Origin: Bacteroidota bacterium
GTDB lineage: Bacteria; Bacteroidota; Bacteroidia; CAILMK01; JACPUW01
Length of the DNA stretch: 64,000 nucleotides
Assembly (NCBI GenBank): GCA_016192035.1
Contig: JACPUW010000004.1
Location: 1 to 64,000, forward strand
Direction: 5' to 3'
Below, piece by piece: positions 2,630 to 5,026 of the stretch. The notes beneath the pieces are model-generated. The model did not search any database. It had not been told where the DNA came from and saw only the letters and a list, made by a program, of their open reading frames with translations. Each line of letters starts with the position of its first letter. The first letter of the stretch is position 1. A program made the position numbers and the translations under genes.

Positions 2630-5026
2630 CTATTTGCGCTCCGAATCGTAGCCCGAGCCATAGCCCGAGCCGTAACCCGCACCATACCCATACCCATACC
2701 CATACCCATACCCATACCCATACCCATACCCATACCCATACTTTGAGCCATAGCTCTTCTTATGGTCAAAATCATTGAGCAATAGCAAGGTGGTCTTTGG
2801 CAGTTGGTTGTGCTGCCACTTGGCATTGAGCATGGGAATGGCATCTTTGGTTGTGATGTTCTGCCGCAGCACCACCAGCACGTGGTCGGCCTTGGCTACC
2901 AGCGCATTGGCATCGGCCACAATATCCAATGGGGTGGTATCAAATAGAATAAACTCAAACCGCTCCGACAGTTCGGCAATCAGCGCGTCCATAGACTCCC
3001 CTTCCAGCAATTCCGTAGGGTTAGGGGGTATTGCACCAGAGATTATGACCTTTAAATTGGCGTTGGCGGTATCAAGCAGCACCTCCCCAAGGCCACACTG
3101 TCCGCTCAACAACTCCGACAGACCCTTGTCCTTTTTCAGGTTGAAGTCCTTAAACAACTGAGGTCTTCGCATATCGGCCCCAATGACCACCACCTTGGCA
3201 CCGCCATAGGCCAAGATCTGGGCCAGGTTCTCGCTGCAAAAGGTCTTGCCCTCACCAGGCCGGGTAGAGGTAATCACAATGACCCTAGAAGGCACCCCTT
3301 TCTTAAACACATAGTGCAGATTGGTGCGCAGGTTTCTAAAAGACTCCGCCATCAAGGATTTAGGGGAATTGAAAATCTCCCCTGCCCTGAGGTACTTAAA
3401 CCTGGGCACTATGCCGATCAAAGGAATGGCACTGTGTTTCTGAATATCATCTGCTGATTTGATGCGCCTGTCAAAATAAAACAGGCCAAAGAGCAACAAA
3501 ATGGGCAGTGAAGTGGCCAAGCTTAAACTCAGGGCATAAATCTTCTTGGCATTGGGCGAAACCTGGTTGGCTCCCCTGGCGTATTCCACTATCTTGTGGT
3601 CACTAAGCACGGTAGCCCCTCTTATGCCAATGTCCAATTTCTTTTCTGACAGGTATTTATACAAGTTCTGAAACATTTCGTACCTGCGCTTAATGTTCAC
3701 CATTTGCTGCTCCAGGGCCGGGAAAAAACCGAGTTCCAGCTCAATTTCCCTTCTACGATTGTCGGCTATTTGAATGCTGTTTTGCAAATCTTGTTTGAGT
3801 TGGGCCACCACCTCGGTCAGCGCCCGGTTGTATTCGTCCAACTGCGCCCTAAACCGCAAGGCAGCGGGGCTGGATTCGGCAAATTTTAGGTCCACCTTTT
3901 TAAGCGCCATCTCGGCATACAGGGTTTGGATGTTTTTTAAGGTCGTTTCTAGCAAGGAGTTCGAAATCCCGGTTATTACCGGTGACTTTAACTCATCAGC
4001 CCCCACGATGCCGGCCAAATAAGCTTCTACCTTTTCCAGGTATTTCAATTGATTTTCTAAGCGAATCACCTCTTCCAACTGTTCCTGGTAGCGGGTAAAA
4101 AGCATGGCACCCTTTGATTCGGTATTGATGATCTTATTGTTTACCCGGAATCGGGTGAGCTCCTGTTCTACTTTTTGTAGGGAGTCGCCAATTTCGGTAA
4201 GCCTATCCTGTACAAACCGTAGGGCCTCCTGGTAAGATGCCTGCTTCTCCTCTTTGGAATGCGCTATAAAGGCCTCCATCAGGGCATTTACATAGTCCTG
4301 GGCATAGGCCGCAACCACGTGTCGGGCAGACACGGTATATACCGAACCGTCTTCCGAAATTTCGTTTACCTGCACGGCACCTTTAAGGTCGGATGTAGCT
4401 GAAAGCGCGGAACGCAGTTCCACCATGGCCTTTGTATTGTGGTAATCATTACCCACCTCTATCATACCCTGAATAATAAACCCATAGGCATTGGGTTTTC
4501 CAAAACGGGCATCGGTTTTCAGCCCTGGCTCATCCTCCGGGCTTATTTGATACCCATCTTCTTGGAAATACACATCAAATCGTCCGAGTACCAAACTATC
4601 TCCTTGTTCCACTTGAAAAGGAAATTCGCGGGCATCGGTTTCCATCAGGCCGCGTATTCGCCCCTCACCATACCACCTCACGTCCAGTTGCATCTCTGTA
4701 TTGGCCATATCGGCCACGGCAGAACTTTGCAGCACCCTGAGTGAATTTTCGTTTGGGTCCATGATGCGGGTCCGCATTCTCCCAGCGCCAAGCCCCTGCT
4801 GTGTGAGTTCCGCCAAGGGGTCTTGCTGCAGGTCTTGGTTGATCAATATCTGGCCCATAGCCTCGTATTGGGGTATGGAATAGCGCAATATCAAATAGGC
4901 CACCGCCAGGCCAAGAGCCAATGCGGCCAGGATAAAATACCAGTACCGCAACAAGAAAAACACAAAGGCCCCAACATCAAATGATTCCTCCTCCCGTTCG
5001 CGTGGTTGTACCAACTGTTCTTGCAT
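2630..5026 (-). CDS. wzc: Wzc-like polysaccharide co-polymerase / bacterial tyrosine kinase with (Gly-Tyr)n tail
   Basis: Inner-membrane regulator of polysaccharide chain length and export, 798 aa. Domains in order: short cytoplasmic N-terminus, TM1 (about residues 27-49), periplasmic Wzz/GumC region with long coiled coils (about 250-470), TM2 (about 505-525), then a cytoplasmic BY-kinase domain. The kinase has Walker A TSTRPGEGKT (about 583-592), Walker A' VVVIGADMRRPQ and a Walker B-like FILFDTTPLDI. The tail after about residue 755 is a run of Tyr-Gly units with about 14 tyrosines in total, encoded by a hexanucleotide repeat. In this family the C-terminal tyrosine cluster is the autophosphorylation site that controls oligomer state. 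The ATG at 5026 lies 4 bp after the wza stop, so the two are co-transcribed. Confidence 0.95.
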   Translation of the reverse strand: MQEQLVQPREREEESFDVGAFVFFLLRYWYFILAALALGLAVAYLILRYSIPQYEAMGQILINQDLQQDPLAELTQQGLGAGRMRTRIMDPNENSLRVLQSSAVADMANTEMQLDVRWYGEGRIRGLMETDAREFPFQVEQGDSLVLGRFDVYFQEDGYQISPEDEPGLKTDARFGKPNAYGFIIQGMIEVGNDYHNTKAMVELRSALSATSDLKGAVQVNEISEDGSVYTVSARHVVAAYAQDYVNALMEAFIAHSKEEKQASYQEALRFVQDRLTEIGDSLQKVEQELTRFRVNNKIINTESKGAMLFTRYQEQLEEVIRLENQLKYLEKVEAYLAGIVGADELKSPVITGISNSLLETTLKNIQTLYAEMALKKVDLKFAESSPAALRFRAQLDEYNRALTEVVAQLKQDLQNSIQIADNRRREIELELGFFPALEQQMVNIKRRYEMFQNLYKYLSEKKLDIGIRGATVLSDHKIVEYARGANQVSPNAKKIYALSLSLATSLPILLLFGLFYFDRRIKSADDIQKHSAIPLIGIVPRFKYLRAGEIFNSPKSLMAESFRNLRTNLHYVFKKGVPSRVIVITSTRPGEGKTFCSENLAQILAYGGAKVVVIGADMRRPQLFKDFNLKKDKGLSELLSGQCGLGEVLLDTANANLKVIISGAIPPNPTELLEGESMDALIAELSERFEFILFDTTPLDIVADANALVAKADHVLVVLRQNITTKDAIPMLNAKWQHNQLPKTTLLLLNDFDHKKSYGSKYGYGYGYGYGYGYGYGYGYGAGYGSGYGSGYDSERK
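2682..2741. repeat. Perfect hexanucleotide microsatellite (ACCCAT)n inside wzc
   Basis: About ten uninterrupted 6-bp units on the plus strand, read on the minus strand as TAT-GGG codons, i.e. Tyr-Gly. All ten units are identical at the DNA level, including the glycine third position. Codon selection alone would not require this; recent slippage expansion would produce it. The degenerate units next to it (GAGYGSGYGSGYD) look like older copies. Gain or loss of whole units changes tyrosine number without changing frame. Confidence 0.95.

Follow-up and report, generated by a model that had tools for sequence, protein, structure and literature searches.

The Wzc-type kinase gene and its neighborhood

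The window analyzed here, a stretch of 64,000 nucleotides comprising positions 1 to 64,000 of contig JACPUW010000004.1 from a Bacteroidota bacterium, carries on its minus strand, at 2630 to 5026, an open reading frame encoding a 798-amino-acid Wzc-type polysaccharide co-polymerase and BY-kinase. The protein matched TIGR01007 with 144.4 bits (cut-off, 108.05) and PF13614 above its cut-off, and a match to PF02706 (Wzz) at residues 15 to 83 scored 22.6 bits, below the cut-off of 25.5. Its matches in the PDB included Wzc (7nhr and 9exo; E = 3.4e-35), CapAB (4jlv), Etk, and VpsO. The BY-kinase domain, delimited from the TIGR01007 match range and an alignment to 7nhr and 67 proteins, spans residues ~561 to 766 (2729 to 3346, minus strand) and contains a Walker A motif, GEGKT (Lys594), a Walker A' motif, VIGADMRR, and a Walker B motif, ILFDTTP (Asp696). 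In the Walker A' motif (window positions 3167 to 3193, residues 612 to 620), glycine replaces the first aspartate of DxD, giving GxD, and the same replacement was found in 50 of the 68 aligned BY-kinases, mostly from Bacteroidota. The acidic pocket residue of the E. coli enzyme, E675, is for the most part not retained in the aligned relatives. The profile matches, the PDB matches, and the Walker motifs thus bear out the identification of the gene product as a Wzc kinase, which had been made earlier from the window alone (the sequence-only reading), and the gene is single-copy in its genome.

A gene for a Wza-type polysaccharide export protein (5031 to 5879, minus strand; PF02563, 45.8 bits, and SLBB domains) precedes wzc in the same orientation, with 4 bp between the two. 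Downstream of wzc, also on the minus strand, are a gene for a small winged-helix-like putative regulator (1783 to 2307; weak matches to PF07848 and NF033788, both below cut-off) and, beyond it, one for a nucleotide-sugar dehydrogenase of the UDP-GlcNAc type (476 to 1771), which exceeded the cut-off of TIGR03026 with 392.9 bits and scored 572 bits with the TviB-type model NF011729, slightly below the cut-off of 592. Low-molecular-weight protein tyrosine phosphatases (LMW-PTPs) are the kind of phosphatase that serves Wzc in Gram-negative bacteria; an LMW-PTP gene was found on another contig of the genome (123 bits), and a search of the genome for a CpsB/CapC-type phosphatase gave none. A search of window positions 1 to 6000 against Rfam returned no match. 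On the far side of wza, between positions 5869 and 9477, cysQ adjoins wza on the same strand, and genes for an APS kinase, a CysD-like protein with a PAPS reductase domain, and a CysN-like GTPase run divergently from wza; the proximity of sulfate-activation genes to export genes would be consistent with an exopolysaccharide that is sulfated.

Other tandem arrays occur in this genome. The contig begins with four tandem 99-bp units (window positions 1 to 400) that are 97% identical, each with a 33-residue open frame, KLSELYRLLFQINLKPNVATVTFVNKLRTLRYY. The assembly probably broke inside a longer array there; the array had only weak, sub-threshold matches in Pfam and was found nowhere else in the genome or in 12 relatives. 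Tandem arrays of 70 to 99 bp also stand at or close to the ends of several other contigs (L301, 13202 to 13823; L289, 1 to 257); these differ in sequence from the array at window positions 1 to 400. On contig C25 (L302, 9959 to 10030), a 9-bp unit, GGTACGAAT, occurs in eight near-perfect copies, a unit length that would keep a reading frame.

A perfect hexamer tract encodes the tyrosine tail

Window positions 2682 to 2741 hold a perfect tandem repeat (TRF: period 6, 10.0 copies, 100% matches, no indels), which reads 10 x CCATAC on the plus strand and TATGGG on the coding strand. Codons 763 to 782 (2681 to 2740, minus strand) encode (Tyr-Gly)10 by nine TATGGG units and a final TATGGT; the repeat is nonetheless perfect over 60 bp at the level of bases, since the preceding AAG codon supplies its initial G. 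The C terminus reads HKKSYGSK(YG)10AGYGSGYGSGYDSERK before the stop codon and places 14 tyrosines (1 + 10 + 3) within the last 40 residues (residues 759 to 798; 2633 to 2752, minus strand), the three distal ones being spaced 4 residues apart rather than 2. Behind the pure tract stands an older, imperfect 12-bp repeat (2649 to 2679, minus strand; 2.6 copies, 89%), which encodes a Gly-Ser-Gly-Tyr stretch. This C terminus is a putative autophosphorylation tail of the Wzc type, as had been proposed.

The ten-unit repeat and the dipeptide run that it encodes lie where the sequence-only reading had placed them. Its statement that all third positions are identical holds for the tyrosine codons (TAT in 10 of 10) and for nine of the ten glycine codons (GGG), the last being GGT. 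Under the codon usage of the window (TAT, 0.53; GGG, 0.20), nine identical TATGGG units are expected by chance with a probability of ~2e-9; if the unit may be of any kind, the probability that nine of ten are identical is ~5e-6. In the 722,657 bases of its own genome that were sampled by regions (~24% of the total), no other perfect period-6 run reached 24 bp. It is a pure short tandem repeat beyond chance expectation, as in a simple-sequence contingency locus. That the real unit number is different or heterogeneous, the assembled number being an artefact, could be argued from the draft state of the genome (44 contigs) and from the liability of short reads to miscount repeats, but 60 bp is less than an ordinary read length, the tract lies within a 142-kb contig with intact coding flanks, and the open reading frame and tail are as in relatives; we regard an artefact as very improbable.

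Tyr-Gly tails are common in the class, and pure tracts are not

Of 395 genomes of the class, 227 contained six or more consecutive YG codon pairs at least once. In a collection of 126 distinct tails, the longest unbroken YG run ranged from 4 to 17 units, and nearly all tails used mixed synonymous codons. Since YG tails occur class-wide with mostly mixed codons, the dipeptide track is kept as protein, and the number of tyrosines is usually held at that level rather than set by a DNA repeat, a point absent from the sequence-only reading. The dipeptide tail is therefore ordinary, and the purity of the DNA is the unusual feature. Of the 103 tails with six or more YG, 5 had at least seven identical hexamers, compared with 0.0165 expected from random codon choice in simulation, a result that upholds the earlier proposal that the identical third positions reflect recent expansion by slippage. 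The 60 bp of the window ranked second, behind a TATGGT run of 87 bp from a different family.

Four orthologues of one genus had 14, 14, 16, and 18 YG, at 51 to 66% identity to the first, and the DNA of their tails ranged from mixed to nearly pure (up to 14 identical units). In this genus, selection seems to hold the length within 14 to 18 YG, whereas purity comes and goes. In the genus of the window's own organism, one other genome (81% complete) gave no Wzc match, a scan of genome contigs with the protein gave no hit either, and the nearest Wzc was ~34 to 36% identical. Among plasmid-borne Wzc proteins (799 records), the Parabacteroides copies inspected represented one strain and had mixed codons, and the Persicobacter tails inspected were without YG runs.

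Pure tracts of this kind extend well beyond the class. In 84,980 species genomes, (TATGGG)5 or longer occurred in 88 stretches, and 24 of the 80 loci fetched were BY-kinase tails, which came from about eight phyla or classes (Bacteroidota, Gammaproteobacteria, Alphaproteobacteria, Actinomycetota, Cyanobacteria, Planctomycetota, Chlorobi, and Sulfurovum). The recurrence of pure runs in the BY-kinase tails of so many groups indicates that slippage expansion arose many times independently.

Unit number differs between nearly identical contigs

The sequence-only reading had held that a perfect hexamer tract can gain or lose units without a frameshift, and such a change, of three units, was found at a homologous tract in another organism. 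Contigs CAMDHZ010000024.1 and CAMCXO010000006.1 (G430:C24 and G431:C6) differed over 42,875 aligned columns, the whole contig, by 1 substitution and 1 indel. The indel lies in the Wzc tail and measures 18 bp, the length of three hexamers. The tails read (TATGGC)9(TATGGG)5 and (TATGGC)6(TATGGG)5, or 14 versus 11 Tyr-Gly, and the reading frame and the downstream sequence were intact despite the indel. By their near identity, the two contigs represent the same near-clonal DNA in two samples. The bins to which they were assigned are named as different genera, and since their rpoB sequences are only 68% identical, one of the contigs must be mis-binned and at least one bin contaminated; the mis-binning leaves the comparison of the contigs themselves unaffected. 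The polymorphism is a single case (n = 1) from metagenome assemblies of an organism other than that of the window, and short-read assemblers may miscount repeats.

In contrast, a pair of mixed-codon tails (G173 and G366), likewise a single case, had seven YG in both members although 15 substitutions had accumulated over 448 bp (3.3%). As a separate observation, and again a single case, two Psychrobacter isolates carried a TATGGG tract outside Wzc in 6 versus 5 copies (L215, 2859 to 2894; L220, 2641 to 2670), with flanks of ~590 bp that were otherwise identical between both isolates. Pure tracts of the Wzc-tail kind are probably hypermutable in frame, and adaptive tuning by unit number is possible.

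A role of the nucleic acid itself was also considered. On the coding strand, window positions 2681 to 2741 contain (GGGTAT)9, a canonical telomere-like G-quadruplex motif, for which two RNA quadruplexes were predicted. Such structures could slow translation or replication at the 3' end of the gene: the last 150 nt of RNA had a predicted energy of -59.9 kcal/mol with quadruplexes versus -39.9 kcal/mol without, and, among the eight YG hexamers, TATGGG and TACGGG are the only ones that yield G3 runs. But other pure tails consist of TATGGT or TATGGC, which lack G3 runs, the length change seen between the two Wzc contigs falls in the TATGGC run, and G-quadruplex motifs are common in the window's own genome (55 in 723 kb). 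A role of this kind is accordingly highly unlikely.

A proposed slippage-expanded track of phosphate acceptors

In the model proposed for Wzc, each subunit's tail enters the active site of a neighbor and is phosphorylated there in the direction from the C to the N terminus, the tyrosine at position i-2 of the acceptor sits in a pocket (YxY), and the octamer dissociates once phosphates suffice (PMC8285477, PMC11986026). The N711Y substitution in Wzc fills a gap in the YxY series and regained capsule in the 3YE mutant (PMC11986026), and in VpsO both the position and the number of phosphotyrosines matter for VPS (PMC7485978). The general claim of the sequence-only reading, that tail phosphorylation in this family controls the polymer, is thus in agreement with published work as far as the extent of phosphorylation in polymerization is concerned (PMC11986026, PMC7485978).

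The interpretation that we favor, with moderate confidence, is that the tail is a slippage-expanded YG track whose in-frame unit changes would shift polymerization and export in a graded manner. Selection at the protein level would preserve the YG track across most of the class, and its repeated TAY-GGN codons could seed replication slippage, which in this lineage may have enlarged and homogenized it until nine units read TATGGG and one TATGGT. With a unit of two codons, any later slippage would add or remove whole Tyr-Gly pairs and leave the kinase unbroken, and near-identical cells may consequently differ in their count of phosphate acceptors. In a (YG)n tail the YxY spacing continues without interruption, and unit number should therefore alter the number of ratchet steps before the octamer dissociates; an altered step number could in turn produce a graded shift in polymerization and export. 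By analogy with the homologous tract we infer that the tract of the window would be equally unstable, and by analogy with E. coli Wzc that its tail length would alter the ratchet steps, with whatever effect this may have on the polymer. The ratchet pocket applies to the Wzc of the window only tentatively, because E675 is not generally conserved in its relatives. The 4-residue spacing of the three distal tyrosines and the restricted tail length in the genus with 14 to 18 YG also count against this interpretation.

Much of the same evidence could be read as a neutral by-product, in which selection holds the length of the YG run, slippage occasionally homogenizes the DNA, and small changes in unit number have no phenotype. 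The class-wide YG tails with mostly scrambled codons suit this explanation, as does the genus that keeps 14 to 18 YG at 51 to 66% identity while its tail codons vary between a mixture and a run of 14 identical units. In E. coli Wzc, moreover, it is the extent of phosphorylation that matters and not the individual sites (PMC11986026), and one tyrosine more or less among 14 may be invisible. Set against it, the three-unit change between near-identical contigs indicates that length is not tightly fixed in the short term, and YG runs vary widely across the class. We judge its chances to be a little short of even.

The sequence-only reading had gone further and proposed a selected, graded phase-variation switch for exopolysaccharide. 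The purity of the tract, its in-frame unit, its location in a master regulator of polymerization, and the polymorphism at the homologous tract are what such a switch would show, and there are precedents for graded effects: point variants of Klebsiella Wzc change, or tune, capsule chain length (PMC10597399), and in H. pylori the in-frame heptad repeats of FutA/FutB act as a ruler, their number tracking O-antigen glycosylation by size (PMC2583950). But the tails of most relatives have mixed codons and are expected to be stable, and pure codons, which under selection for switching would be expected to persist across related species, do not. The genus whose four orthologues keep 14 to 18 YG likewise speaks against a dedicated switch. 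A selected switch appears unlikely.

Comparison with known systems

The closest characterized proteins are the Wzc kinases of E. coli K30 and K-12 (PCP-2a, BY-kinase; PDB 7nhr, 3la6, and 9exo), with which the protein shares a homologous kinase domain with Walker A, A', and B motifs, a tyrosine-rich tail after the kinase, and an adjacent Wza-type gene. The tail of E. coli Wzc has few tyrosines, in mixed spacing and without a DNA repeat, whereas that of the window's Wzc has ten of its 14 tyrosines in an unbroken YG track from a perfect hexamer; the two also differ in the glycine at the first aspartate of the Walker A' DxD, which the window's Wzc shares with most Bacteroidota relatives examined. 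A short Tyr-Gly repeat tail, (YGX)4, is also present in CpsD of Streptococcus pneumoniae, where it is the autophosphorylation target and affects capsule; there the kinase is split from its membrane partner, and the repeat is of three residues in four copies (title of Morona 2003, as cited in PMC4574921). FutA/FutB of H. pylori resemble the window's Wzc in that a polysaccharide enzyme changes its repeat number in frame, differs in this number among members of a population, and thereby adjusts a surface-sugar trait by degrees, but they are glycosyltransferases with a seven-residue unit, for which a dimerization ruler, and not a count of phosphate acceptors, has been proposed (PMC2583950).

The tract also resembles simple-sequence contingency loci such as those of Neisseria and Campylobacter, with short tandem repeats, slippage, and a surface-polysaccharide gene in common. 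Slipped-strand contingency loci mostly switch on and off by frameshift or promoter spacing; the unit in the window, unlike theirs, keeps the frame.

There is precedent for the tyrosine tails of BY-kinases, for slippage-driven contingency loci, and for in-frame repeat rulers with graded effects. The open-access literature searched contained no description of a polysaccharide kinase whose tyrosine number is set by a hypermutable repeat, of a hexamer repeat in a Wzc tail, or of phase variation in Wzc tail length, which is weak evidence of absence, and the combination of these known parts is apparently undescribed. More broadly, slippage might vary the number of acceptor tyrosines in kinases of several phyla, so that they act as hypermutable tyrosine counters with graded ratchet and polymer lengths, a generalization that we put forward as speculative and on balance doubtful. 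A natural series of tails, alike except for how many identical YG units they contain, would provide a direct test of the model of Wzc as a ratchet or timer. Should a change in unit number prove to have a phenotype, the tract would represent a contingency mechanism that tunes surface polysaccharide instead of switching it off, and one that screens for frameshifting repeats alone would have missed.
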